This document shows positions 1,347 to 51,805 of a stretch of 64,000 bases of DNA, one piece after another (positions within the stretch are counted from its first letter, which is position 1; each line of letters starts with the position of its first letter). Source of the DNA: Pseudo-nitzschia pungens (taxonomy: Eukaryota; Bacillariophyta; Bacillariophyceae; Bacillariales; Bacillariaceae); the NCBI GenBank assembly GCA_037355855.1, contig CM074760.1, forward strand, positions 1,666,501-1,730,500, in the 5' to 3' direction. Below the pieces are notes generated by a model. It saw only the letters and a list, made by a program, of their open reading frames with translations, was not told where the DNA came from and searched no databases. The position numbers and the translations under genes are program-made.

Positions 1347-3614
1347 TCACCAAATCATATTTTCGACACTCTCTCCGGCAACAGCACCGGTTGTGTAATT
1401 CATTGGCGGGACCACGTGATACTCTGTTCGTGGAAGTGGTCCAATTTCGCGAGATTCTATGGGTATCTTAATCGTATTTAATTTGGCGAGGTTGGGCACC
1501 TCGAGATGTCCCAAAGTGGATCGAACTCGCTCCCGTGTTTCAGATGGAGTTTCTCGTGTCAGGTTCACAGAAGTCGATGATTTTTGGTTAGTACTGAAGG
1601 ACGATGTCGAACGAACAGAGCCGCCACCATTCACACAGCCGTGAGGACAGGCCATTGCCTCGAGGTAATGGAGAGTACGTGTGCTACAGGCATTTCCAGT
1701 GTTGCCAATCGGTCTTTCGACAACTTGTTTCAATGCGCGCTGCATCGTTTGCATCCCATGGGCAACGGCGAAATGAAGAACGAGCTTAGATGATTCTTCA
1801 TTTTCGGATACAACCGGCGCAATGCCATACGAACCATCCTGATAACGATATAACTTTGTCTCGTAGTAATGCTGTTTCAAAAGCTTTCCCAATCGAGCAC
1901 TTCGAACATTTTTCGCTGCGAGCGAAGCAGCTTGCCATTTCACACCTCTTCCTGTTCCATGATCATCGCCGTCGCCATCACTATCATCAAATGTGTAGCC
2001 AAAAAGTTTTTTGGCCGCATACATGAACATGAAATTCGCATGGCCACCAGAAGAGAATGCCATTTGATGATTTTGCAGCTTGGCTGTCGTCGTCGCAGCT
2101 TTGGTGTTTACACCTTCGCGAATAATTGTGGGCGTTGTCAACAATAGTGGTGTCGACTCTTCGTTAACATAGTAGGGCGAAGTTTTTTCCAGGAAATCCT
2201 TCGGTTCGAGCACATCAGTGCTCACGGTACTAGGAGGCAAGGTCGCTAAGTGATTCGCAACCGAGAGAGACGAGATTAATCCCAAATGTGCCTGTGACTG
2301 GTCGTGATTCTGATTTTGCTGGCTTTGAATCCATTCTTCTACTAACTCGACACATTCTTGTGTACTAATCACAAGATCCACTGCTTGCTCCTTGGACTCG
2401 TTGGCAAAATCTTTTCGAGACGCCTCCAACTTTTTATCGTGACAAGGCATAATTGCCCAGTGATCCCATCTATTTTTTCTCACTATATTAGGCGTTTCAT
2501 CATTCGTTGATAAAACACTGTTGGTGTCCACTTTGTGAGAGGAAAGTTTATCGTTTTCATCGTTGTCGCCATAATGATTCAAAATTATACCAGCCAGACT
2601 CATCGGGGAAATAGTTTGCGACAAATTTGGGACTAGTTGCGTTAAGGTTTTCTCCACAAGGCACACTAGAGCAGGACAGGAGCCGCTGATCAATGGTAAA
2701 ATTGCTGCTGGTCTCTTGGAGTTGTTGCGTATCTCGGAGGTTCCATCCGATTTGTAATAAAGTGTTTTGGACGAGTCAATAGCTATTGATGGAAGGGGGG
2801 GAGGATTGCTGCTTGCTCTTTGCAGATTTCCTTCTTCACTGGAAGTTTCTAGAGTTTTTTTGTATGCTTGGCAAAACTCTTGGGCTTCATCGATCCACGT
2901 CCATTGCAATGGTATATTTCCATCCATAACAACCTTTACCGACAGCATTTTCCACAACAAGGTCGTGAATCGTGAAAAATAGAAATTATGGTAGTCACAC
3001 TCGTTCTTTCCACGAGCTTCGTCATGGTCACCAGACTCGAATTTGTACTTTAGGTTCCAATGTCGGCACATATCCGCCCAAGAGTTTGGGGAAATCGTGA
3101 CAATACGGGGTCTCTCCCTCCCTCCGGACGACGACGACGACAATAGTCGATTCCGTAAGCTTTTCAGGGAATGCCGTTCTTCCATCATCACCGTCTCGGC
3201 TGTCGTCACGCACCCAGAACAAGCAAGGCAATCCGCCATTGAAGCTTTCACAGCTTTTTTCGTTTTCTTCTCTCCTTCCTCCTGTTTCGGTATCGATTGT
3301 TGTAGCGGCGATATCGGTTCAGTCCCCAATCCCCTTGTTGTGGCTCTTTCTGAAGGTTCCGTTCCATCGGTCGATGATATAATTCTTTTTCGCACGATCC
3401 GTCGACGACGCCGAGGAACTACGACATTTGTAGAGGATGCCGGTTCCGTCCCCGTTATCGCTTTCCCGGTCGCATCGCCGCCATTGTCGTCACCCCCAAG
3501 TTTGGTAGTTGGCTGAAATGCTGGGTTAATACATGCCTGCGAGGGTGCCAAATAGTCATCTATGTTTTCTAGCGTGACCGAGCTAGATCTTAGAGACGTG
3601 CTCGCCATAGCCAT
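1347..3614 (-). CDS. NAR1: Cytosolic Fe-S cluster assembly factor NAR1 (iron-only hydrogenase-like; CIAO3/IOP1)
   Basis: NAR1 is the hydrogenase-like adaptor of cytosolic iron-sulfur assembly; it links the scaffold to the CIA targeting complex. The 755-residue single-exon frame starts at ATG 3614 (MAMASTSLRSS). N-terminal cluster ligands are visible: Cys28 in YLAPSQAC, then Cys129, Cys132 and Cys135 in ADCLACSGC. Later family blocks include SISPMSLAG-like text, an MPCHDKK block, AFSSGGHANFMF, and the C-terminal ACPHGCVNGGG that carries the H-cluster-type cysteines. The protein ends in Trp, as NAR1 proteins do. Odd points are an about 100-residue low-complexity insert between Cys28 and the CxxCxxC group, and a longer total length than the usual 450-550 residues. 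Its 5' end faces the prolyl-hydroxylase gene across a motif-rich 1 kb spacer. Confidence 0.9.
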   Translation of the reverse strand: MAMASTSLRSSSVTLENIDDYLAPSQACINPAFQPTTKLGGDDNGGDATGKAITGTEPASSTNVVVPRRRRRIVRKRIISSTDGTEPSERATTRGLGTEPISPLQQSIPKQEEGEKKTKKAVKASMADCLACSGCVTTAETVMMEERHSLKSLRNRLLSSSSSGGRERPRIVTISPNSWADMCRHWNLKYKFESGDHDEARGKNECDYHNFYFSRFTTLLWKMLSVKVVMDGNIPLQWTWIDEAQEFCQAYKKTLETSSEEGNLQRASSNPPPLPSIAIDSSKTLYYKSDGTSEIRNNSKRPAAILPLISGSCPALVCLVEKTLTQLVPNLSQTISPMSLAGIILNHYGDNDENDKLSSHKVDTNSVLSTNDETPNIVRKNRWDHWAIMPCHDKKLEASRKDFANESKEQAVDLVISTQECVELVEEWIQSQQNQNHDQSQAHLGLISSLSVANHLATLPPSTVSTDVLEPKDFLEKTSPYYVNEESTPLLLTTPTIIREGVNTKAATTTAKLQNHQMAFSSGGHANFMFMYAAKKLFGYTFDDSDGDGDDHGTGRGVKWQAASLAAKNVRSARLGKLLKQHYYETKLYRYQDGSYGIAPVVSENEESSKLVLHFAVAHGMQTMQRALKQVVERPIGNTGNACSTRTLHYLEAMACPHGCVNGGGSVRSTSSFSTNQKSSTSVNLTRETPSETRERVRSTLGHLEVPNLAKLNTIKIPIESREIGPLPRTEYHVVPPMNYTTGAVAGESVENMIW

Positions 3615-19772: not shown

Positions 19773-22700
19773 CTAGAATGCAATGCCTCGTTCCCCATAG
19801 TTTGGATATTGAGTCTCGAAAATTTGCTGATCATACTTTCCACGCAACGACTCTTTTGTGAGGCGATTTTTTTCTCGTACGTTCCTCTCGGCCATCTCAA
19901 GCAATGTTCTGATTCCTTTCGAAGGGATTAACCACGATTGCTTTTCGTACTCCCTAGATAAGATCCCTACAACTCCTCCTTCATCATTTACACATGGTCC
20001 ACCAGAGTAGCCATGATTATTATACGTTCCAAAATCAACTTGAATTTCTTCCTTAGGTAAATACTTGTTTTTCGAATCCGATTCGGTGTAATCATCAACA
20101 TCTCTTGCTTTCGATATCTTCCTTATAGTACCCTCCTTATAACATGCCCTTCTATTGACATGCATGCCTTTTTTATACATTCCTTCACCTGTCTGGTTGA
20201 ATCCGAGAAGTCGTACAGTCTGCTCTCTATTACACTCATTGGTGATCTTCAACTCGTTCTGTAACATCGGAACGTTATGTCCTCCGATTGTAGTAGTGAT
20301 CTTCAAGACGCAAGCATCGATGCTGGAAACATTATGGGCAACTATCTCGGCATAGTAGCGCCAATTTGCAGCGCCGTCGCTTTCAATAAACCCAACTTTA
20401 ACTTTCGCATTTTTCAATCCAAAATATTTTGCTCCAAAGTTTTTATCTCCTCCCTCACACATGTTGAAGAAAGTATGACTAGCTGTCACGACAAGGCCTA
20501 ATTCCTTGTTAGCAACGAATCCTGTACCAACACGGTTTTCTATCTTGCTGTCATCATCCCACAGCGCGACTATGACAACGGAGGGAAGCAGATCTTCTAT
20601 TTTTTTCACTGGATTCTTGTACGCGGTAAACATTTCAGTACCGTACTCGATTTGCGCAGCGGGAGGGACTGTTCCACGAATCAAATGATAATCGGTTTGA
20701 TGCCCCTTTGTGCACAAAATATGGGGCAGTGCTGACTCTCTGTTTATGCTCTTTAAGCTCCACGAGATGGCAGAGGGTGCACCTGATCGCTGCAAGCAAA
20801 CCGGGCATGTGACTTGCCTAGAAGAAAGACGCAGTAGAATATAGCAAAGATGAGACACCTGACTTCTACCGTATTGTAACTCTTGCTTACACAAACCATA
20901 AACGCACCTTTCGATTTTGCTGCAGTTCTTCGTTTTTGTGGCCTTGATTGTGGCTTCGACTGAGTCTAACACAATTTTGTAACCACCTCTCCATATTTTT
21001 CGGCCATTATCAGAGGATTTTCCTTTAGCACTAACTATCAATCGCTGCCAGTGGGGTTCCATAGAATCTGATGCTACTGTATGTGGAGACGTTTTGTCTG
21101 TAAGAGCAACAAGAATCTCAGTAGTTTCCATAAACTCGTTTTTTGTTGAGAATTTTTGTCCAATCACTATCAGGAAAGAATCTTTCCAGAAGGTTGTGCG
21201 CAGAATATGAATCGGCCCTGTAGGCTGTTCATCATCGATCTCGTTGAAGTTCGAAAAGGGGTAGGTACTTGCTCGATGCAATCGAGGATTAGATCGAAGT
21301 GGAAGAACTCCACGTACCTCGGGATAGGCGCTTTTGTATAAGTCTCTAAGCAATGCAACTGCAATATTTCCCATGAGACCGGATGGCATACCATCTTCGA
21401 AAACCTGGAGACGTAAAGTGGTAGCGTAAAATGAGAATTGTAATAGGTGCTACATGTTCATGGTTGGCGAGATGATTTGATTTGCGTGATGAATACTGGT
21501 AACTTACCCAAGAATTGCAAATCGTTGTTTTCTGTTATAAAAGTTGTATGACATATTTCAAAAGAGCAAACAAAAATCTGAGTGAGACTTGAATTTCAGT
21601 AGAATTCTTTCGCAGGAGTGAAACCATGACTTCGATGCAATCAACCACATTACCACGTACATTGGGTGTTTCGCAATTGTATGTCCAGAAATCCCCAGTG
21701 CTTTGTTGAGGCAGTAGACAGGGGAAAAAGTAGGTTTCGTCCGTTTCGTTGATTCCTAACGGCAGAAAAACACCAAAATGTGCAAAAAGAACTTTGAGGA
21801 AGGGAAAGAAAATTTCAACTTCTTCATCAAACAACGAAGCATGCCATAGCAGCGCCATGTCGCTGCTCGACAAAAGAGGGCAACTGCTAGAAGCTTCCTG
21901 TGTAAATGTTTGGGTTATGAAGCTCTCTGGATAAGGGAACTGCATTTCTTGGTACGCATATTGCCCGCGAACAAAGGATCGAGCTTTGGACAAATTCGAC
22001 TCGAATCTTTTTTGCAGAAAAACACAAAGCCCACGGACAAACACACGTAGTTTGCCATCTTTGTTCATATTTTGTTTGGCATATTTGTTGTGTGATGTGT
22101 CATTCTCGTCGGAGTTAGAATCAGTGAGGTTGATAACGTAGTTCTTAACGTCAGATTCAGAACAGTTAAAGTAGAGCACTTCTCCAATACTGGCAAGGAA
22201 AGACAAAACTTCCATTACGGCTTCCTTCGAATCCTTCCTCTCACGGGAAAGTTCTCCAATGAAGTCATCGACTTTCATCACCGTGGCTGTTCGAGCTTTG
22301 AGCTCATTCCAGATTTCAACGGTTCCTGGAGGGACAGTTTTTCCAACTAGAGGAATAGCGCTAACACCTTCACGAACAACCAGTTGCGCCAAATCATCAA
22401 GACCGATGTCGTTTCCCTCTCGTTCGCACAATGAGACACAAGCGAGAGTATCGTTTTCGCAGAACAAAATGTTAGGCCGTATACCTTCTGGCAACTCCTC
22501 TGTATATCTCAATAAAAAATCTTTTGTGATTTTACATCGCGATGTGGCTTCGTCCGAAGACATCGATGAGGGTACCACAGCAACAGGCAGAATGACAGAA
22601 TGGTTTGTCCTTCGTGCTATACAATCTATCCATGATACTACACGTTTTCTGATGTCGGCTTCAAGAGCTTGGGCAGCTTCATAGTCAGTTGTGTCGTTTT

Positions 22701-24645
22701 CAGCGTCGTTTTCAGCGTCGCTTTCAGCCATATCGTACACCAACAAATACAATGCTTGATCCGAGAAAAATAGTGACTGGACATCAGGGTGAGCGCCAAA
22801 GTTTGGTAGGTGTTCTTCGCCGGCCTTACTTTCCGATGCCTGTACATCCCACATTGTGAAGTTTAGTTCAGAATTTTCTGGCTTCCAGGTATTGACATCA
22901 ACTCGGAGATTCGGTCGCGACTTTTTCCCTTTGCTCTTTGGTAATTCCCCTTTTATTTTGAGTGTTTCATTTACCAGTTTCGCACCGAGCTTGCTTCTGT
23001 TAGCGGAATTGTCGCCCACCACGAAGAGTTTGACGATATCGTTGTAAACTTCTTTATCCTCTGGTTTAGCTTGAGATAGTGCAATCGACCCTGCATCTGA
23101 CTTGGCCTTTGCCATGGAGGCCTTGGGTGAATGATGTATTTTGTACTGTGTACACTCCTCCTGCTCCATTCTTTCTTCTACGAGACGGCCTAATATCATG
23201 TCATCGGTGCATGAATTCAGACCTTTGGCAGCTTTCACAGAACCTTTGACGCCTTTGTCTTCGTGTTTCGTATACAATTCTTCTATGTGGGTGACATGTG
23301 CGCATACCTCAGAACAGTTGGGGTCGCTGTGACCAACGAGGCTCGCACGAGCCTCATGAGGCGACTGAGCCACAGCTGGAGATGACAGGTCACCCGATGG
23401 AGAAATCGAAAATGGTTCCACGGAAGTGCTTGAGAGAGTAGATCTGGGGGTGTCTTGTCCAGCATTTTGCGTCTCACGAGCGGCAGGTTTTCTATCAGAC
23501 ATCGACGACGAATTAGCTTTCTGCTGTTTCCTTGTGGAATTTCTTGCTGATGCCGAACCACGAGAGGAGTGCGGTGGGTTCTTCTTGTTCCCCAAAAGAG
23601 CAGGAAGAAAACTCTTTCCTTTCTTCTTTTGGCTTTTGCTCTTGTTGCCAGTGGCCGCGACTGTATTGCCGAAACTTCCCGACGCAGTGGATTGAGTGGG
23701 TGGAGAAATGAGTGAATCCTCTGAGCGGTCAGTCGACATTGCTAAAGACTGATGACGCGAATTTGGGGCCTCGATCAAACTGCCGTTATCATCAAATTCA
23801 TGGCAATCATCCGAAACGCAATTGCTACGGGCCTCTCGAAGAGAATAGACGTCGCCTTGTTCATTGCCGAAGTTAGTGGCGACTGTGGTTGAATCAACAC
23901 TCTGAGACTCGCTTGTATCATGTCGATTGAGAGCGCCATCGGATTGCGGGGACTCCTTTCGTTTCCGACGCAGGAAAAATCGGCGAAATCTTTGGAACGT
24001 AGATTTCTTTTTGTTGGAACGAATGTCCCGACGCATTTCTTCCATCGAACGTGAATCGTCGTCATCATCTGCAGTGTAATCTTCCTGCACAGGCCGTTGT
24101 ATAATTTGACCATCGACGACAACTAATTCTTGTCCATCCATTTCCAATTCTGCTGCCAAAGTTCCTTCCCCCTGGCTATCAACGATGTTGGCATCGGGTC
24201 TAACTGCTATGGACGATTCTGGGGGAACAGTTGATACTACACTGTCGTCAGTTCCGGGGCGAATGTCTCTTGTGGAGGTTGATTCCGCGGCATTCGTAGG
24301 GAACGGAAAGACGTTTCGCATCACCGTTGTTACCAACGTAGCCACAGCATATTGATTGCAATTGGCAATTCTGGTTTCGTTCGAACCGATCTCAGACGAA
24401 GCATCTCTAGTTGGTGATGCTTCTCCGCCCGGCGAGATTAGAACGGGTACGGCAATAGGAATTGTCGGGGTTGTCGGTTCTGTGTATGACCACTCTCGAA
24501 GCAAAGGAGATCCAACCATTACGGGAGTAGCTGTTTGTCTCGCTGCAACAGGGGTAGTGGGATCTCCAATGGAAGAAACATCGTTGTTCCCGTCCATGAT
24601 TTCATCATTGATGTCGCTCTCTTGGGGAGCCATTGCTGTATCCAT
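19773..24645 (-). CDS. ROCO-like protein (degenerate ROC GTPase plus COR) fused to a trypsin-like serine protease
   Basis: Two long frames join into one gene. My model reads 24645-21661, micro-exon 21531-21508, 21404-20908 and 20817-19773 (1516 residues); all junctions keep frame, with donors GTACGT, GTAAGT, GTGCGT. Order: disordered Ser-rich N-terminus (1 to about 530); ROC-like domain (about 536-735) with VVGDNSANRSKL in place of the P-loop and WDVQ in place of DxxG; COR region (about 790-1110) with LLWHASLFDEE, YFFPCLLPQQS and VFEDGMPSGLMGNIAVALLR; a CPVC plus CTKGH module; then a trypsin-like domain with VGTGFVAN, His1283 (TASHTFF), Asp1336 (SSIDACVLK) and Ser1440 (GYSGGPCV). The GTPase motifs are degenerate, the protease triad looks intact. 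ROCO proteins usually carry kinases or repeats, so this architecture is unusual. A signalling or defence switch is inference. Confidence 0.82.
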
Positions 24646-27029: not shown

Positions 27030-30000
27030 ATGGCAATTATTTCATACATTCAAATTCTTCCCGCATTGCCATTTCTACCATTCGCTACAAGTGCGCTTCC
27101 TCAACAGGCTTTTTGGAATAACGAGTGGCCATCCGACTTACAGCCAACAACTGAAAATGATGAACTTCTAGAAGGCACTGTGTTGTTTGCGCAATCCCAA
27201 ATCATTCCATCGAATCATGGGATAGAAGACGATAATCAGCCTCATTTGACCGCATTACGAAAATCTCTCGTCATGTTGCGACCTCATGACACTGAAGGCG
27301 GATTGTTGAGCATAGAATTCACTGTTCGCAACAAGGACGGAACGATTATATCCGGTGAAGATCCCATTCTTATGAACGGCCCGGAAGACATTCCGAAACA
27401 AGAGGGATGGCATAATTTCACGCAGTTGCCTTCCTCACTTCAGAACGCACACGTCCTTCAGGGCCAAGAAGAGTTGGATTTGATTGTCGGAAACAAAACA
27501 AATAATGACAATTTGACCAGTATCTTCAATTCCAAAAACAGACAGATCGAAGTGAGAACATTCAATGGGTCATGGGTTCCAAACATCCATTTACCAAACG
27601 GATCCGAGATACCTGAAGGTTCTAAATTCCAAATCACTTGTGGGTCTTCTTGGGCAGTCACAATACACTATTATTCATATAATTCGAGCGACACTGTCAG
27701 CAATGAATGGAGAAGTCGATCGGTATCTATGGATGAAACATTAGTGATTGTTTTGGTGAACAGTGTATGGATGACAGAAAATGATCCAAAACCAGATCAT
27801 ATACTGGAATATCCTACTGAGTTGAATAAGCCATATGTGATACAAGACCAAATCAATCTAACTGAAATTGGCAATGATCCCGAAGCAGTTGGTTTGAAAG
27901 GGATATTGAACGATAATTCTAAAACGCCGACCAACGAAGTACAAATTACAACATGGGATCGTTCGTGGGTGAAGTTTATTTATCTCCCAGATGGCTCAAC
28001 TGTTCCTGCAAATTCCACGATTCAAATCATCGCAGACTCTTATTCCGTTGTTAACGTTCAATATCGCAATGTACAAACCAGTGGCTGGAGAGTCAGGTCT
28101 TTGTCGCAAGGCCAAGCATTAATTTTTAAATTGAATCCATTTAACAATGAATGGGTGCCTTCCGAGGACCTACAACATAATGATTATGTATTTGGGCACG
28201 ATTTCTATACAGGCACATTGGATGCCGAGTGGGTGGTCCCTGGAATGGCGTTGGAATTTGCTTCACGTAGCAAAAGAGGCGTTTTGAAAGCAGTCGTTGG
28301 CGGGGTAACTGAATTGATCGTTACCACATTCGATGCAGGATTCTTGACAAAGCCAAGAAATGAATTCACTTTTCGCAATGACTTAACAGCACACAAAGAA
28401 TACTATGAAACAACTTTCGCTACAAGACTTATTGTTGTTCAATACGAAAGCATTCATCTCACTGAAGTCATGATGCCAACTGGGAAATTGTATGAAACCG
28501 CCAGTGACGATGAAGGTGGGCTATATGATGGTGACATGAGAGAGTTTATTGGCAGAATACTGCTATCACACGGTATTAATTTGGCCAACTATGGTATATC
28601 AAGCTCTTTAGCACAATCGGAGGAGCCTCATCCATTTACTTGTGCCCTATTGACTGCTCATAATACTATTGGGATGTACAAGAACGGTGAAAAAGTTCAT
28701 GGTCCAAGTGGAGGGAATGGCATAGTAACTTTATATGAATCCATCGGTAACGAACTTAGTCATGAGGTTGGACACAATTACGGGCTAGATCACTATGTGG
28801 GTGGTTTTGAAGGGAGTGTTCACCGTTCAGCTGATCAAATAAACTCTTCATGGGGATGGGACAGCAGTAAAAATGTATTCCGTCCTAATTTTTCCTCCTT
28901 TCATACAGGAAAGGATCAGTGCCTACAGAGAAAGTGCCAGTCGGCATTCCTTGGCAAACATCAATACGGCAAAGATGCAATGGCACATGGTAGTCCACTG
29001 TGGGGTTCAAACCGGTTCACCATGTATACACCGAGCAGTGCAAAAATTATACAACAATTTTTAGAAACAAGGGCTATTTGGGACCCATCATCTTCAACTG
29101 GATTTCGAAAATATGATTCTACGAGTGGGGAAATGAAAGAATTTGTAAATGATGATAATGGGAACAAAGTGCCACGCTTGTACCGTGTTCCTGTTACGAC
29201 GATTATGGGATACTATGATCCTGATCCTGACCGTTCTTTACAAAGCTACATCTACCCTGCAATGCATGGGGCATTTGGTTTTGTCTACAACGACGATGGT
29301 GGCTCTTCCACAGGATCCTTCGATGGATGCGAACTCGTTGTCAAAACAGAAAAGGGTATCTTAGTTTACAATCTTGAAACATTCATTGATTCAAAAGGTA
29401 TGAACAAATTTCATGTGAATGTTGCGACGGCGGATGAGCCATATGAGGCAGAGGTTTATTGCAAGAGCAAGCTATGTGCTGCCCGAGCCCTGGCAAAACC
29501 GAATGACGATGAACCGCCTCTGGTTCATACAGTGAATGGACTCGCTTTCGCCGAAAACGATATTTCAAGTTCTCCTAGTAACGCTCCAGTTTCTCCAACC
29601 ACTGTCTATCCATCACATCTACCAAGCATATCACCGACAAAATCACCGGTAGAATCGCCGACAACAGCGCCGACAACAGTGCCGACAGCATCTCCGACAA
29701 CATCACCGACTGCATCACCGACTGCATCACCGACTGCATCACCGACTGCATCTCCGACAACATCTCCGACAACATCTCCGACAACATCTCCGACAACATC
29801 TCCGACTGCATCACCGACTGCATCACCGACTGCATCACCCACTGCTCCACCCACTGCATCACCCACTGCATCGCTTACAAAGACTGACTTAGTATGTAAA
29901 GACAGGAATGATTTGAAGTTTGGAAGAAAAAAGAAGTCCTGCAAGTGGGTTAAGCGCGGGAGTAAGAAAAAGGTGAAGAAGAAATGTAGAAAGAAGTCAA

Positions 30001-30080
30001 AAAAGATTCGGATTTGGGATTGGTGCCCTGCAACATGTGGTAACGTTGACCTTGGAAAATGTGCAGGCATTACCATTTGA
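27030..30080 (+). CDS. Secreted M66 (StcE/TagA-like) zinc metallopeptidase with S/T-P stalk
   Basis: Single exon, 1016 residues, ATG 27030. It has a hydrophobic signal peptide, then two related beta-type modules (SWVPNIHLPNGSEIPEGS near residue 186 and SWVKFIYLPDGSTVPANS near 314). The M66 catalytic domain follows (about 395-830): HEVGHNYGLDH at 578-588 gives zinc ligands His578, His582, His588 and catalytic Glu579, followed by YVGGFEGSVHRSADQIN, a DAMAHGSP turn, and VPVTTIMGYYDPD plus YIYPAMHGAFGFVY, all typical of this family. Residues about 870-949 are an S/T-P repeat stalk. The last 65 residues are basic with six or so Cys ending CPATCG, like the short Cys-rich modules on other secreted diatom proteins. 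M66 members cut glycoproteins; the substrate here is unknown. The family is mainly bacterial, so old transfer is possible. Confidence 0.88.
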   Translation: MAIISYIQILPALPFLPFATSALPQQAFWNNEWPSDLQPTTENDELLEGTVLFAQSQIIPSNHGIEDDNQPHLTALRKSLVMLRPHDTEGGLLSIEFTVRNKDGTIISGEDPILMNGPEDIPKQEGWHNFTQLPSSLQNAHVLQGQEELDLIVGNKTNNDNLTSIFNSKNRQIEVRTFNGSWVPNIHLPNGSEIPEGSKFQITCGSSWAVTIHYYSYNSSDTVSNEWRSRSVSMDETLVIVLVNSVWMTENDPKPDHILEYPTELNKPYVIQDQINLTEIGNDPEAVGLKGILNDNSKTPTNEVQITTWDRSWVKFIYLPDGSTVPANSTIQIIADSYSVVNVQYRNVQTSGWRVRSLSQGQALIFKLNPFNNEWVPSEDLQHNDYVFGHDFYTGTLDAEWVVPGMALEFASRSKRGVLKAVVGGVTELIVTTFDAGFLTKPRNEFTFRNDLTAHKEYYETTFATRLIVVQYESIHLTEVMMPTGKLYETASDDEGGLYDGDMREFIGRILLSHGINLANYGISSSLAQSEEPHPFTCALLTAHNTIGMYKNGEKVHGPSGGNGIVTLYESIGNELSHEVGHNYGLDHYVGGFEGSVHRSADQINSSWGWDSSKNVFRPNFSSFHTGKDQCLQRKCQSAFLGKHQYGKDAMAHGSPLWGSNRFTMYTPSSAKIIQQFLETRAIWDPSSSTGFRKYDSTSGEMKEFVNDDNGNKVPRLYRVPVTTIMGYYDPDPDRSLQSYIYPAMHGAFGFVYNDDGGSSTGSFDGCELVVKTEKGILVYNLETFIDSKGMNKFHVNVATADEPYEAEVYCKSKLCAARALAKPNDDEPPLVHTVNGLAFAENDISSSPSNAPVSPTTVYPSHLPSISPTKSPVESPTTAPTTVPTASPTTSPTASPTASPTASPTASPTTSPTTSPTTSPTTSPTASPTASPTASPTAPPTASPTASLTKTDLVCKDRNDLKFGRKKKSCKWVKRGSKKKVKKKCRKKSKKIRIWDWCPATCGNVDLGKCAGITI
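29640..29876 (+). repeat. Coding minisatellite, 12-nt unit (S/T-P repeats)
   Basis: Tandem units of the type CCGACTGCATCA or CCGACAACATCT encode a PTAS/PTTS repeat in the stalk of the M66 peptidase. Unit order is uneven, with runs of identical copies, which suggests length variation by slippage or unequal exchange. Confidence 0.88.
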
Positions 30081-34538: not shown

Positions 34539-35738
34539 CTAGATGCCACTGCCATGGTCAGTACCAGCACCATGATCGTTGATTCCCAGTGCCTCTGCGA
34601 TTGGGAGATGCATCATGGATTCAATATTGTTCATAGATAACTCTAACCGCTCGAACATGAAATCTGCAGGATCCCTGGGGTTAAAAGGCGTATCTCGCAA
34701 CGAACCGGGTTCAAAGTCTTCTGGCAATTTTTCGTCCAGAAGGAAAAAATACAGACGGTGTTTTTCGACGGTCGTCAATGTTTTGTCGCTGCTCAAAAGA
34801 AACAAGAACATGCCCTGAGCTCCCATATTCCCAACGTCGAAGTGTCGAAATTCGGTTTCGGGGTTTGTCAAACGAGAGTCCATGATTCTGTCGGCTTGGT
34901 AATGAAAAACGTTTTCCAGCGTCAGAAAACTTTTTCCGCGGTTTCTTCTCATCAAGTTGTTAAGGAGTCCATCGTCAACTTCTCTTGATTTGTCAAAGCC
35001 AAAAAAACTATCTGCTCGCACCATACTGGCCTCGTGTTCTTCGCAGTCGCCATCAAACAGAATGCTGAGATCAAACCTTCGAATTCCATTTGAGTCGAAA
35101 TAAGTTTGATTGCAATCGATCATTTGTTGGATTGGTCCTTCCATCAGAAAGTCAGCTGCCACGTTGTAGACCGCTTCTAGTTTCATAGCCATATCCACTA
35201 CATCAATGAAAGTGCCGTTTCGATTGATGAAACCATGATTGGCAACTGTGTTCACGAAAGGGCATGGACTGCGTTGGTCAGTAGCCCCAGCAGGAACCCA
35301 TTCATGAAATTTCGGGCAGTGTGCATCGACAATGAAGGTTTCCGAATGCGCTTGCGAAATAGTACTCGCGCGATCTCCTGATACCGTAACAACGTACTCC
35401 CCGAGCTCAAGATTGTCGGTTTCAAATCGGATCACCCCATTCGATGGCCATCCATCTGAGCAGCCGTTTCTTTGACCACAGGTTAATATCCATTCGGACA
35501 ATTTGTCGTCGGAAAAAGTTGGAAGATTTTGAAGGTCGTCGACATTTTTCTTCGGGTACAAACCTATCCAGATGCCTTCCCCCTTGACATTGCTGAAAGT
35601 TGTACGGATAGCCTCCCCCTTTTCAAAACATGGTTTGCTTGTCAGAATTGTAGCAGGTTCGGTGAGGGGTCCTTCTGAATTCTGCGCACCTGCAGAAGCA
35701 AGGATGAGCGAGAGAAAAGGAACAAGGCAACCTCTCAT
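34539..35738 (-). CDS. Secreted heme-thiolate peroxidase (chloroperoxidase/peroxygenase family)
   Basis: Single exon, 399 residues, ATG 35738, with signal peptide MRGCLVPFLSLILASAGA. Family motifs: SPCPFVNTVANHGFI, where Cys159 would be the proximal heme thiolate, and EHEASMVRAD, where Glu234 matches the acid-base Glu of the family's EHD motif (here EHE). An N-terminal about 130-residue beta-type extension (GIWIGLYPKKN to HSETFIVDAHC) precedes the peroxidase part and looks like an extra SKICH-like or Ig-like module; this is inference. Such enzymes use hydrogen peroxide to halogenate or oxygenate organics, in the secretory path or outside the cell. The Asp-to-Glu change in EHE may weaken Mg2+ binding near the heme. 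Confidence 0.85.
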   Translation of the reverse strand: MRGCLVPFLSLILASAGAQNSEGPLTEPATILTSKPCFEKGEAIRTTFSNVKGEGIWIGLYPKKNVDDLQNLPTFSDDKLSEWILTCGQRNGCSDGWPSNGVIRFETDNLELGEYVVTVSGDRASTISQAHSETFIVDAHCPKFHEWVPAGATDQRSPCPFVNTVANHGFINRNGTFIDVVDMAMKLEAVYNVAADFLMEGPIQQMIDCNQTYFDSNGIRRFDLSILFDGDCEEHEASMVRADSFFGFDKSREVDDGLLNNLMRRNRGKSFLTLENVFHYQADRIMDSRLTNPETEFRHFDVGNMGAQGMFLFLLSSDKTLTTVEKHRLYFFLLDEKLPEDFEPGSLRDTPFNPRDPADFMFERLELSMNNIESMMHLPIAEALGINDHGAGTDHGSGI

Positions 35739-43912: not shown

Positions 43913-45922
43913 GGTTGTGTTAAAGGATTTCAGAGACACAAGCTTTATTGTTTTACTGGGTCGTCTTTTGATTGAATTGTTTCTCTGCCGAACTACGTTT
44001 AAGATCGTTGACACATTCACCTTTTTCCGTACAATGAATGAAGTACTACTAGCTACTAGTACACGTACGTGAAAAACTTCTAACCATGAAAGTTAAAAAT
44101 CAACGGAAGTGCCATTCTTACAACTTTTTTTCGATCAATCTTGCGTGATGATAATTTTGGTTTTCAATGGAGGAGTCGGGACACACCAGAGGTATCAAAG
44201 CATCAGAGCATGAGTGGGCATCATCAAAGACATTCAAAGTAGAAATTTTGTCAGTTGAAGCAGGATCAACAGGATGGGGCCTGCAGGCAATTTGACGTCC
44301 ATCAGAAGGACGAAGTATTTCGGTTCACTTCCTCCAATTGCATTCTGAGTAATATTGTAAGCAGATTTGGTTGGAAGAAGTGTATGAAATTCTTCCAATA
44401 GATAACAGAAGAGTCTTCATTTACTTTCTCCATAAAGACACCTTAATGTGAGCTATACCACCATAGTAGCATCATCAGCAATTCTTTTCTAGACTGTAAT
44501 AATTGTAAACAAACAAAGTCAGGACCTGATGGTCTCTCTTGTTCCTTTCCATTCCATGTCTAGATCAACTTTGTGTTTGATATTGTGCACTATTGTTTTC
44601 TCTTCTCTGAATACTCTTTTTCCTTCCTGAACAGCAACAACAAACTAACTTGTTGACTCACTCTTCAACCACCAATTGCAAAAATTGTGTGCTGCTTTTG
44701 ATGAAATTTACTCTAATGGAATCTTCAAACAGATATCTGCTACTCCATTTCATAATATGTTTATCAATCTCTCGCAAAGCGTTCAAGTAGCTGCAGAGAT
44801 AGTACGTTCCATGGTCGAAGCACCAAGAACAACAGAGACAACAGATTGGAACAAGAAAATTGGAAAAAGTGTTACCACCGTACGTGGGTGGAGTAATTAC
44901 GAATATGTTTTTAAAAGTACTAAGCAAAGAAGTCGTTCAATTATGTTTTCTTTTTGTCACGAAGTTACTCTAGGATTTTAACCGAATACGTAGTACAGTA
45001 GTAATTAAGGTTACTGTAGAACGAAGTAACCTTAACTAAATTATCATTGTACGTAAGGTCTTACTCCGAGTGTTCAAAATACAAATCAATAAAAAAATAC
45101 GAAGTCATCTTCAGTGTCATGTCGTCTCAAAATACAAGTAACTATGGTACTATTACGTGGTAACTTACTCGTACCACCACATGGACGTAAGATTAGCATT
45201 GGAAGTTGAAAACAACTTTTCATTCCTCCATCCATTGAACATACCGGTAACCTTAAACGTTACCGGTACCGTAAGGTTTACTCTGTAGGAATAGAAGCAA
45301 AGGTCATGCGGATAGACTGAGATGATTGATTAGAGTTGATTGATTGGGTCAAGGGATGGGGATGATAATAAATACTTCGTACTTTTTAATTACCGTACGT
45401 CTTGTTGATGACGCAACTTAAAAACATCAATACGAACAAAACGGTAAGGTTATCCATAAAAATAGAAGAATTTCTTGTTAATAACGGTAATTGCCAGCTT
45501 TTGGCATTGTTTTTCATGAATTTCACGAATTTGGCAGTACCGTAGACATGACGGGCTGGCTCTCAGAGTGTAACAGCTACAATAGCACGGATCATTCTGA
45601 CACTCGCTGTCAGAAATCTGGAGCAAGGACTTCTTCGCTATCTTGTCCACTCATCGTTCTACATGAAACCGATACTTGTGTATGTTAGAAATACAGATGA
45701 CCAAAATAGGCCATTCTTGGATTGGCAACGCCTTTTGGTATGTTCTTCGTGTGATCCTGCATCAAACATGCATTAATTAATACGCATTACGATGAATTTA
45801 CTGATGCTTAATTGCTTGTTGCACTTTCGATTGAGACCAAGACAAACAAGTACGATAGCTGCCCCATAATTCTCCAGTGTTGCAAAAAGCCTCATTTTAG
45901 TTGATGGAATTCGATTGTGGTG
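43913..45922. other. Divergent spacer with palindromic-word island
   Basis: 2 kb between the PP2C and DUF6824 starts. TACTAGCTACTAGTACACGTACGTG-type text lies near 44045; a dense island spans about 44985-45460 with AGGTTACTGTAGAACGAAG, ACCGGTAACC, TTACCGGTACCGTAAGG and ACTTCGTAC. Open frames at 44658-44981 overlap on both strands and are not convincing. No gene is seen. Confidence 0.5.
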
Positions 45923-47086
45923 ATGGCGACCAGAGCAGAAGCAAATGATGATGCGATGCAAGAATTTGTCTCAGGCACCTTGGAATCGAGCAGCAGCTCA
46001 CTAGGTAAGGAAAGGTCAAAGTTGTCGGTTGGAGGAGACACACCTAGAAGAGTGTTGATAACAGAGCTGAACGATAACGACGTTCTCCAAGGTAGAGGAT
46101 CTGGGTCAATGCAAAATGCGGGAAATATTCGCTTTCGGGCACTGGTAGAGGAACTCAGACCGGCATACGTCGCAACCTCAAGTAGGAAAAAAAAGGCCAA
46201 AATGATAATTGATATGGTGCGAGTAATTCAATCAAGGAAGGGTCGTTTCCTCCAGCGACTGTCCGACAACGAATCTGACAAGTCGGGTGTCCATTTTGCT
46301 AACGAAGAATCTCACGTGGAGCAAGAGCAGTATGTCGAAATGACCGACGAAGAAGCAGCCGAAAAAACAAAACAGGCAATCCGATATGTGCACTATAAGA
46401 AGGTCCCATTAGAAGAAGAGAGACGCAAGAAAAGGGCATCAGAGAATCTTCCACTGCAGGGCAGCAAAAACTTCTACAGTCCATCGATACGGGATGGCAA
46501 CGAGAAAACTACCGGGGAAGCCGCCCAGAGAGCAGACTATACGGAAAATGTGAAAAGTACGACTGTCATCCCTCCTGCAATATCCCACTCTTCCCATGTA
46601 ACGAATACTTCGTCGAAAATTTCTATCCCAGGGATGAACACTATTCATTCGCAGCTTCAACAAACCGACCTTGGTCAGTTACTTGCAACTCTGCAGACCA
46701 CACAAACAGCTCTTGCAGCTCAAGTTACAGGGCCTATCCCCACTTTGTCACAGGTTCCAGCGAAACAATCTGCGGCACAACAGGCTCCGGCTGGTGCTGG
46801 GTTTGTACCCGTATTTGGAACTCTTCAGCAGCAGCCCAATCAAATTCAGCGAATTGGATCGACGGCGCCCTTATTTACTAGCAACGGCAATGATTTGCCT
46901 CAAAAATTTACACAAGCTTCAACTATTTCGCTGAATAATGCCAACATTCAAAATACGACCCAGCAGCAACTCCCGCAACAACAACCGCAAGTGAGCGCTC
47001 TGCTTCAAAATTTTATTCAGCAGCAACAGCAGCAGCAGCAGCCGGATTCGCTCTCGAACTCAATAATCCAAACGCTGCTCCAGCAG

Positions 47087-47118
<32 letters not shown>

Positions 47119-47206
47119 ACAGCAGTGGCAGCAACAGCAATGGCAGCAACAGCAACAGCAACAGCAAATAAATTCAGCCCTGCAAACTTTACAGCAGCAG
47201 CAGCAA

Positions 47207-47247
<41 letters not shown>

Positions 47248-47803
47248 GCGATTCGCCTCTGCGCTTCAATCTCTACAGCAACCACTGCAGACAAATTCAG
47301 CGGGCGAATTACAGCAGCAGCAAAACATGGATACGCTTCTGGCGTCTCTTTTGTCGAACGTCACCGCAAAAACAAACATGAATTCAAACCCACAAACTGA
47401 ATCAATGCTTCCTTCCCTTGTAAGTCAGCCTCCCCCCACGACGGCTCCAGCAGCAATTGTGACACCCCAACCAACTCTGGAAGCTGCGAATTCTCTCCTT
47501 ACGTCATTGCTAGCGAATAATATGCCCCGAGCTCCTGCTGCTCAACAATCTACAAACCCCAGCACTGGAGCAATGAATCAGCTTGTTGAGTGTTTGCTTA
47601 CTGATACGACAGGGCAGCATGATCAGCAGCAGCAACATACCAAAAATTTTCTACAGGCAATGCCGGGCATAGGAAACATGAGCGCGATCTTTGCTTCGAG
47701 CGCGAACGCCAATGTCGGAAACAACAACTTTCATCAAGGGCAAAATGTCGCAAATACGGCAAAGAGACCACGGCTTTCATTGGACAATATTGGTGGTATC
47801 TGA
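45923..47803 (+). CDS. DUF6824 protein with poly-Gln tracts
   Basis: A 626-residue protein from ATG 45923 (MATRAEAND). The recognised part is the DUF6824 domain (about residues 45-125), a family frequent in diatoms: ELNDNDVLQGRGSGSMQNAG with NIRFRALVEELRP, and a basic AKMIIDMVRVIQSRKGRFL end. The usual NDVLxGRGG...GNxxFR pattern is kept. After it the protein is Gln/Pro/Thr-rich and disordered, with three glutamine runs at about residues 365-455 broken by Trp and by INSALQTL/FASALQSL. The end (KRPRLSLDNIGGI) has a possible nuclear signal. A nuclear regulator is a fair inference from the composition, but DUF6824 has no established function that I know. Confidence 0.82.
47013..47283 (+). repeat. 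CAG/CAA (poly-Gln) coding repeat
   Basis: Mixed CAG and CAA codons in runs of up to about 19 glutamines, with two TGG interruptions. The mixture suggests selection on the protein tract rather than pure slippage, though both can act. Confidence 0.9.
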
Positions 47804-49033: not shown

Positions 49034-51805
49034 ATGAGATCGAACTTTCAAAGGTTGCTGTCAGTGCAGCAAACGATGATCGCATATACTCTGTCCATTT
49101 TGCTCTATTTATATCTTTTCGATGGTCAAGTACAAGCGTTTTCGAGCAGACCGTTGTATTTGAAGCCACTTTCGGATGCATCTTACAACACTCACAGCCG
49201 GAATTATGGGAACAACGAAGGTCGGTACCGACCAAACAAAATCAAGGTAAAACGACCAAATCGAATGAATCACCGAAGATCAAGGCCGGATTCTTCACTG
49301 GCCATGGCGATAGACATTGATATCACTTCGCTTCCTAATATTCCATCGGCAATCGAGACGTTACAGCACACCGCGACAAGCTTCTCGCAGGTTATTGCCG
49401 ACGCCACCGAAGGTGTCGAATTATCTTCGGCAATGGAGTTAGCACCGTCAACAGAGGACGGATCGCTAGGTCACGACATTTTCGTTTTTTTGGTGGCTAG
49501 TGTCTTTGTGGTCCCTGTTTGCAAGTCATTGAAGATCACACCGGTTCTTGGCTTTCTCCTGGTGGGGTGTGTTCTGGGTCCCTATGGATTAGGATTGTTC
49601 GACAACAGCGAACAAGATATGGTTTTGGGAGATTTTGGAATTCTTTTCCTGTTGTTCAACGAAGGGCTTAGTCTAAGCCCAGAACGTATCAAAGAACTCG
49701 GCCGTTTCACAGGACTTGGCGCATTTCAACTGATCATAAGCATTGGTCTGATTTTTCTTGGATCGGTTTTGTTTGGACCAATCCTTGTGAAGTACGCACA
49801 AGAGATTGGATTTCCACTTAATTTCGGACTTTTGAAGCCGCTTTTCGATAATCCAATCGAGTCCTTCTGTATTGCTTCTGCGGGTGCCTTATCTTCATCT
49901 GCATTCGTGTTACCATTTCTGAAAGAAAAGGACTGGGAGGAGCGACCTGAGGGAATTGCAGGATTATCTATACTCTTGCTTCAGGATTTATCGGTAGCGC
50001 CACTGCTAGTTGTTTTGCCATTGCTGGCGGGGGGACCGACTGCTCCGCAATCTGCGGTCGATTTGGGGATCCTAGTGTCTAAAGCAACAATTGGTTTTGG
50101 TGCTGTACTTGCAGCAGGAAGTTACTTTCTTCGATATGTCTTCGATGTGGTGGCATCAGCCAGGTCCACAGAAACGTTTGTAGCGGCGTCTTTACTTGTG
50201 GCGATTGGGATGGGCGAGGTTGCCGATTTCCTAGGACTGTCGGCAACCACCGGAGCATTTGCGGCGGGTGTTCTGTTAGCAAGTAACAGATATCGGGCAC
50301 AGATTCAGGCAGACATTAAGCCTTTCGAAGGTATTTTGTTGGGCATATTCTTCATCACTGCCGGTGCCAATCTGGATCCGCTACTCGTCCTTCAGGAGTG
50401 GCCGACCCTGACCGCCGGTATATTTATTTTCATTTTAACCAAGGCGGGAATAATATTCGCTTCGGGTCCGTCTCTGGGCCTAACAAGCGCTGAATCTGCA
50501 CGAGTCGCTTTGGTTTTGTCAGGTGGTGGAGAGTTTGCTTTTGTTGTATTTCAGTTGGCTCAGGACCTTGGAATATTACCTGACAAGATTGCTAATTTGC
50601 TTATCGCCTCTGTAATTATATCCATGTCACTCACCCCAATACTGGGAGAGATCGGCGCCGCCGCGGGGAATTTCATCGAGTCGAAAAGTGGAATAGTGCG
50701 GGCAGACGGGTTAACCGCTGAAGAAGAGATTGAACTCTTCGATAAAATCGATATTGATAACTCTGGAACCATTGACATGGACGAACTTCGAGAAGCATTA
50801 GTTCGGCTTGATTTCTCATACCCTGCTATTGCGGAGGTATTTGAAAGGTTCGACACGAATGGTGATGGAGTAATTTGCAGAGAGGAATGGAAAATCGGAA
50901 CTGAGTCGGGTGTTTTGTCCGAAGCATGCAACAAAGACACCTCAGACTCTTCCCTATCGTCGAGCAACTTGTCATTTTCTGACGATGCAATTATCATATG
51001 TGGATTTGGAGAAGTTGGTCAGGAAATATATCGAATGCTGGATGGATTTGGGTTTTCGGGTACCAGAAGCAATGTCATTTGTTTTGATTTGAATCCTAAG
51101 CGTGTTCTGGCAGGGAGTTTGAACGGGGCCCCCGTTGTGTTCGGCGATGGTGCCAGAAATGAACTGCTTAAAGCCGCTGGCGTGAGAAATCCACGAGCAG
51201 CAATCGTGACCTACGCCTCGGATGACCGGCGTATTAGTGCAACGATGCGACTACGTTCCTGCTTGCCTGAAGGGACTCCGATTTATGTGTACGAAGGAAA
51301 TAGCAGGATTGGATCAAAGCTCATAGAAGTTGGAGCAACCGAGGTCATCGTCGAAAAAACAGAAACAAGTCTGCGGTTCGCCTCATTGCTCGGTGCCTAC
51401 ACGACAGATGATGAAGCGTCCCGATTGCGAACGATGAGTATGAACCGCGTTGCCGTGAAAGCACCACAAGCCGGTGATGATCCCGAAAATTTCGTTTTAC
51501 CCGGCATATCTGAAGAATTGTTGATTGATCTATGCGAAGAACTCGGTTGTTCGAGGAAGAATGTAAAGGATTTGTACCTGTCATTCCGAGCGGTTGCTGG
51601 GGACAAGGATTATGTCCCAATTTCCGAGCTAAAAGATTATATAATGAGGCAGTCATCAGATGGGCCCATGGACGACATTCAACTTACAACCTGCATGTCT
51701 TTGGAAGACGAAGACGGAGGAGGAGATATTACATTCATAGAATATCTACGGGCTAATTGGAACACGGAATGCCCTCTCGACGAATCTACTACATCAGGTA
51801 GGTGA
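49034..51805 (+). CDS. KEA3: Plastid K+/H+ antiporter KEA3-type with EF-hands
   Basis: A CPA2-family exchanger; in diatoms KEA3 sits in the thylakoid, tunes the proton gradient and so photoprotection, and is known to carry an EF-hand region. 923 residues, ATG 49034; an alternative in-frame Met15 would give a shorter signal. The leader ends in QVQAFSSRP, an ASAF-like plastid motif. The transporter (about residues 140-540) has GFLLVGCVLGPYGLGL, LLFNEGLSLSPERIKEL and ATTGAFAAGVLLASN. Two canonical EF-hand loops follow, DIDNSGTIDMDE (about 573) and DTNGDGVICREE (about 607), then a TrkA-N/RCK nucleotide-binding domain with ICGFGEVGQEIYRML, and a C-terminal degenerate EF-hand-like segment (EDEDGGGDITFIEY). 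Ca2+ control of transport is a supported inference. Single exon. Confidence 0.93.
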   Translation: MRSNFQRLLSVQQTMIAYTLSILLYLYLFDGQVQAFSSRPLYLKPLSDASYNTHSRNYGNNEGRYRPNKIKVKRPNRMNHRRSRPDSSLAMAIDIDITSLPNIPSAIETLQHTATSFSQVIADATEGVELSSAMELAPSTEDGSLGHDIFVFLVASVFVVPVCKSLKITPVLGFLLVGCVLGPYGLGLFDNSEQDMVLGDFGILFLLFNEGLSLSPERIKELGRFTGLGAFQLIISIGLIFLGSVLFGPILVKYAQEIGFPLNFGLLKPLFDNPIESFCIASAGALSSSAFVLPFLKEKDWEERPEGIAGLSILLLQDLSVAPLLVVLPLLAGGPTAPQSAVDLGILVSKATIGFGAVLAAGSYFLRYVFDVVASARSTETFVAASLLVAIGMGEVADFLGLSATTGAFAAGVLLASNRYRAQIQADIKPFEGILLGIFFITAGANLDPLLVLQEWPTLTAGIFIFILTKAGIIFASGPSLGLTSAESARVALVLSGGGEFAFVVFQLAQDLGILPDKIANLLIASVIISMSLTPILGEIGAAAGNFIESKSGIVRADGLTAEEEIELFDKIDIDNSGTIDMDELREALVRLDFSYPAIAEVFERFDTNGDGVICREEWKIGTESGVLSEACNKDTSDSSLSSSNLSFSDDAIIICGFGEVGQEIYRMLDGFGFSGTRSNVICFDLNPKRVLAGSLNGAPVVFGDGARNELLKAAGVRNPRAAIVTYASDDRRISATMRLRSCLPEGTPIYVYEGNSRIGSKLIEVGATEVIVEKTETSLRFASLLGAYTTDDEASRLRTMSMNRVAVKAPQAGDDPENFVLPGISEELLIDLCEELGCSRKNVKDLYLSFRAVAGDKDYVPISELKDYIMRQSSDGPMDDIQLTTCMSLEDEDGGGDITFIEYLRANWNTECPLDESTTSGR

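Follow-up and report, generated by a model that had tools for sequence, protein, structure and literature searches.

A predicted pseudo-GTPase of ROCO descent joined to a trypsin-like protease in the diatom Pseudo-nitzschia pungens

ROCO proteins, in which a Roc domain is followed by a COR domain, are known mainly through LRRK2, the Parkinson kinase, and its kinase. In the ROCO proteins treated by a 2019 review (PMC6337361), COR mediates dimerisation, nucleotide affects the monomer–dimer state and the ROCO core is seen as a switch; the words 'protease' and 'peptidase' are absent from its main text. Among 111 brown-algal ROCO genes, all with N-terminal leucine-rich repeats (LRRs), three fall into a group defined by a peptidase at the C-terminus (IPR009003), which nests among other ROCO proteins of the stramenopile, alveolate and Rhizaria (SAR) lineage, some also peptidase-bearing, and diatoms are given at most four ROCO copies each (PMC11378527, 2024, accessible sections). 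Trypsin-like peptidases and, rarely, Roc-COR modules also occur as parts of multi-gene bacterial conflict systems (excerpts of PMC7159879). From PMC11378527 and the 2019 review, ROCO-peptidases count as a known kind of protein, though one with hardly any description. The gene considered here occupies positions 24645-19773 of the minus strand in a 64,000-nucleotide window of P. pungens (assembly GCA_037355855.1, contig CM074760.1, 1,666,501 to 1,730,500), and is predicted to encode a ROCO-derived, LRR-less protein with broken GTP motifs and a C-terminal protease. A preliminary description had seen in it a possible undescribed diatom system, a claim that must be narrowed, as ROCO proteins ending in a peptidase are already on record from brown algae and from further SAR organisms (PMC11378527, same sections). 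For the pseudo-GTPase, LRR-less branch itself, no description was found in the literature searched, which covers subscription journals thinly, and the accessible sections of PMC11378527 make no mention of it.

Two long open frames lie on the minus strand, 24645-21535 (1036 residues) and 21389-19773 (538 residues), with a stop between them, and GT-AG introns at 21660-21532, 21507-21405 and 20907-20818 join both into a predicted protein of 1516 residues. In this model, exon 1 (21661-24645; residues 1-995) would encode a disordered N-terminus, a Roc-like domain and most of COR-A; a 24-nt micro-exon (21508-21531; residues 996-1003) the peptide KTTICNSW; exon 3 (20908-21404; residues 1004 to ~1169) the remainder of COR, with which the homologue alignment agrees; and exon 4 (19773-20817; ~residue 1169 to 1516 and the stop) a CPVC/CTKGH module and the protease. 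No second AG-24nt-GT window exists in the stretch that separates exon 1 from exon 3, and the product of the micro-exon corresponds to KTTICHSW in P0001, a homologue with the JGI label Psemu1 that we take to be from Pseudo-nitzschia multiseries. A plain join across 21660-21405, yielding a 1508-residue model, was rejected, its product missing eight residues aligned in P0001 that the micro-exon restores; this version served as the query of the homologue search and in early alignments, and the later alignment and the motif counts used the 1516-residue version. The third intron (90 nt) is in frame and stop-free; were it kept in the transcript, the protein would gain 30 residues immediately ahead of the CPVC module.

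The stop between the frames is what two separate genes, one Ras-like and one encoding a protease, would leave in genomic DNA, and we give that arrangement practically no credence: the micro-exon and introns restore a single frame, homologues run as one chain, and a paralogue in the same genome (contig C4; L014:2329-6375) encodes Roc, COR and protease within a single open frame of 1348 residues, with COR-A slightly under the Pfam cut-off and LRRs above it in the preceding frame. Because of these single-chain homologues and this paralogue, chance or a two-gene artefact is very unlikely, and the locus is predicted by homology to be one coding chain over four exons.

Homologue searches, in which scoring was confined to candidates sharing most words with the query, matched residues 530 to the end to 12 proteins at E up to 0.01, ten of which (P0001, P0003-P0010 and P0012) are single chains of 1460-1841 residues with Trypsin_2; query coverage was 96-97% for P0001 and P0003-P0010 and 56% for P0012. 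The other two are P0002 (1008 residues), which ends before the protease, and P0011 (875 residues), without the start of Roc. Three raphid pennates account for the named matches, P. multiseries, Seminavis robusta and Epithemia clementina; the host's own proteins are 91% and 94% identical to the metagenomic P0002 and P0013, and 55% and 68% identical to P. multiseries P0001 and P0014. With the paralogue as query, 225 proteins matched at E up to 0.001; among the 120 of these covered by the analysis below, transcripts labelled complete (P0046, P0088, P0095 and P0102) hold Roc and Trypsin_2 together. Compared at the level of sequence, the Roc-COR-protease fusion is real. Some members carry misleading database names, such as 'NADH dehydrogenase (ubiquinone) complex I, assembly factor 6' (P0006) and 'Miro domain containing protein' (P0027), and the family is therefore easily overlooked.

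The Roc-like domain (~residues 527-765, limits approximate; 22351-23067) was placed by an AlphaFold model of the window's own 23067-21661, in which a fold search matched a Roc followed by a COR, the order characteristic of ROCO proteins being predicted here through structure. Its P-loop (G1) is degenerate, reading GDNSANRS (residues 544-551; 22993-23016), as is G3, WDVQA (residues 599-603; 22837-22851), and G4 reads PVAVVPSS as compared with PVATFDDL in the own-genome paralogue. In the alignment, the strict forms of G1 and G3 expected of a working GTPase are absent from the window protein, which is accordingly termed a ROCO-derived pseudo-GTPase and not a ROCO GTPase; its Roc has likely lost the GTP switch. 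No LRRs were found by Pfam on the window frame or by pattern match, and no kinase family by Pfam in either window frame, so that no LRRK-type kinase was detected after COR. Identity to P0001 is similar across Roc (56%), COR (64%) and protease (63%), with 52% in the region of the cysteine/histidine module and 40% in the N-terminus; this even conservation, above that of the N-terminus, points to a function that Roc still performs. The N-terminus itself (24645-23068, minus strand; 526 residues of low complexity) holds short blocks common to relatives, among them LLREW, VAPAVVL, YPVATFV and KVDK...ML.RA in the consensus; such blocks may serve for docking or cleavage.

Two forms of the protein are distinguished by motif counts, which describe related sequences and not independent events. 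In the canonical set (n = 121: the own-genome paralogue and P0013-P0132), GxxxxGK[ST] is present in all 99 countable members and DxxGQ in 101 of 101; the catalytic triad and the CxxC...CxxxH residues are each complete in 119 of 119, and an LRR pattern occurs in 87 of the 92 sequences of at least 1300 residues. The divergent set (n = 19: the window protein, P0001-P0012 and P0133-P0138) retains the triad (16 of 16 countable) and the cysteine/histidine module (18/18), with no LRR pattern in any of the 19, an intact G1 in two of 14 countable members (P0012 and P0138), DxxGQ in none of 17 and DxxG in nine of 17. The serine pattern was counted as GxSG[GS], P0130 having GHSGSPC; the triad was not countable in P0002, or in P0135 and P0138, where no serine motif aligned, and gaps or missing sequence precluded a G1 count in P0001, P0010, P0011, P0133 and P0135.

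A midpoint-rooted tree resolves three groups, the canonical (support 0.989), that of the window gene (1.0) and that of P0012 (1.0), the last comprising P0012, P0011, P0133, P0138 and the Chaetoceros transcript P0135 and lying on the opposite side of the root from the window gene's group. A single clade of all divergent members, seen in a first midpoint tree, was undone once six more sequences were added, and LRRs may have disappeared in a single event or in two. Within the window gene's group, strict G1 occurs in none of the 12 countable members, P0137 retaining GKSS minus the first glycine; LRRs are absent by pattern, and the triad is found in every countable member. The broken G motifs, together with the long branch (1.08 substitutions per site) that the window protein shares with P0001, would also suit a copy decaying into a pseudogene, an explanation that we rate as very improbable in the face of 1516 open codons, GT-AG splice sites, a preserved triad and cysteine/histidine module, the 56-64% identity to P0001 across all three domains, and broken P-loops common to the whole group. 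Canonical and divergent members occur together, one of each, in the host genome, in P. multiseries (P0014/P0001), in Epithemia (P0090/P0008) and in the Chaetoceros transcriptome MMETSP1447 (P0130 and P0135), and P0006 alone was seen in Seminavis; since the canonical form seems widespread in diatoms, this co-occurrence offers weak support for a pairing of the two.

The C-terminal window frame matches Trypsin_2 above the Pfam cut-off (E 1.1e-13). Its predicted catalytic residues, His1283 (20475-20477), Asp1336 (20316-20318) and Ser1440 (20004-20006, in GYSGGPC), stand in columns conserved in the family, and their order, with the serine within GxSGG, is that expected of the PA clan. Upstream lie CPVC (residues 1173-1176; 20796-20807) and CTKGH (residues 1204-1208; 20700-20714), the two halves of a C-x2-C...C-x3-H module identified by alignment. 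A profile of CPxC...CxxGH found no solved relative by sequence (a single match, E 0.7), and the LRRK fold matches of a model of the canonical relative P0026 reach residues 854-861 and span its module (C806, C809, C839 and H843); the module may be an extension of COR-B or a separate zinc module. NCBIfam returned weak matches alone, far under cut-off.

The nearest solved folds of the modelled P0026 protease are DegP, DegQ, DegS and HtrA1, and the window frame has a weak sequence match to HTRA1 (best E 0.0017). From these likenesses the protein might be read as an HtrA-type protease with housekeeping or stress duties, its Roc-COR a mere handle for localisation or oligomerisation with no signalling switch. 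We consider this unlikely, as Pfam lists Trypsin_2 and Trypsin but no PDZ domain for the C-terminal frame (E up to 10, with filters removing most matches above ~0.1), the Roc-COR-protease order is conserved in many diatoms, and ROCO cores elsewhere are treated as switches (PMC6337361, accessible part).

Taken together, these results bear out the preliminary description in part. It had joined the two frames into one protein of 1516 residues, placed the catalytic residues exactly where the gene model has them, and proposed a ROC-COR fold (with which the structure model and fold search agree), a pseudo-GTPase and a trypsin-like protease; other diatoms do show this domain order, for which it had suggested a search. 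The usual diatom form of the fusion, unlike the window gene, carries LRRs.

Since the protein has lost its GTP motifs but not its protease triad, the most economical interpretation is a scaffold with a proximity-activated protease: Roc would serve as a fixed, likely nucleotide-independent scaffold, COR would dimerise the chains as in other ROCO proteins, and the proximity of the assembled chains would activate the trypsin/HtrA-like protease, the disordered N-terminus taking the place of GTP as control input. We hold this to have slightly better than an even chance. No signal peptide was seen by eye and the protein presumably resides inside the cell; a plausible partner would be the GTPase-competent LRR-Roc-COR-protease paralogue of the same genome.

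Several points weigh against such a scaffold. Gene and protein are known here from genomic DNA, and we infer dimerisation, activation and nucleotide independence alike; the protease-fold matches belong to P0026 and not to the window sequence. Pfam, read up to E 10, detects no Roc in the window protein, and its COR-A match (E 0.15) falls under cut-off (of six relatives scanned, P0003, P0006 and P0012 pass the Roc cut-off), and the alignment behind the structure model included relatives with intact Roc, possibly pulling the fold. Of 13 aligned sequences in the window gene's group, 11 retain the P-loop lysine (P0003-P0010, P0134, P0136 and P0137), the window protein and P0002 having lost it, and nucleotide binding in the group may persist. 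This retention leaves more room for a Roc that binds nucleotide atypically, in a GTP-regulated ROCO protein whose protease replaces the kinase, as do the predicted Roc-COR fold and the whole P-loops of P0012 and P0138 in the other divergent group; with G1, G3 and G4 of the window protein all off pattern and DxxGQ missing from every countable divergent member, we regard it as doubtful.

The family's composition is of wider interest: a protease stands in the position of LRRK2's kinase, and forms with intact and with broken GTP motifs share one genome, a natural experiment on the purpose of the GTP switch. To our knowledge, switches of regulated proteolysis are little known in diatoms, and if assembly does drive the protease, a concrete and testable route to such regulation would be at hand. 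An immune or cell-death role might be proposed by analogy, and its elaboration into a two-tier switch, in which signal sensing would fall to the LRR-bearing, GTP-gated ROCO-protease and the pseudo-GTPase one would then be its partner, the mixed assembly leading to proteolysis in defence or cell death, is distinctly improbable.

Elsewhere in the window, a 1016-residue frame (27030-30077, plus strand) that matches Peptidase_M66, with TagA and StcE beta-sandwich domains, is arranged head to head with the gene described above; metalloproteases of the Peptidase_M66 type are best known from bacteria. One frame of 923 residues (49034-51802, plus strand) combines a Na/H exchanger domain, EF hands and TrkA_N, and is possibly a calcium-regulated exchanger. 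Further frames match the C-terminal domain of the iron-only hydrogenase large subunit (1350-3614, minus strand; perhaps a Nar1-like protein), Peroxidase_2 (34542-35738, minus strand) and, above cut-off, DUF6824 (45917-47800, plus strand).

Set beside the known systems, the window protein shares the predicted Roc-COR fold with LRRK1, LRRK2 and the prokaryotic Roco proteins of M. barkeri and C. tepidum, and differs from them in its C-terminal protease, the absence of a detected kinase and its broken Roc motifs. From the HtrA/Deg proteins DegP, DegQ, DegS and HtrA1, the nearest folds to the P0026 protease, it is set apart by fusion to Roc-COR, with no PDZ domain listed. With the brown-algal group 3 and other SAR ROCO-peptidases, compared by description only (PMC11378527, accessible sections), it has in common a stramenopile ROC-COR followed by a C-terminal trypsin-like peptidase, whereas the N-terminal LRRs of the brown-algal genes were not found in it and its Roc motifs are broken. 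The canonical diatom proteins, most of which bear LRRs and all countable members of which keep GxxxxGK[ST] and DxxGQ, differ from it in these respects and share with it the same order of Roc, COR, CPxC...CxxGH and protease, and the same catalytic triad.
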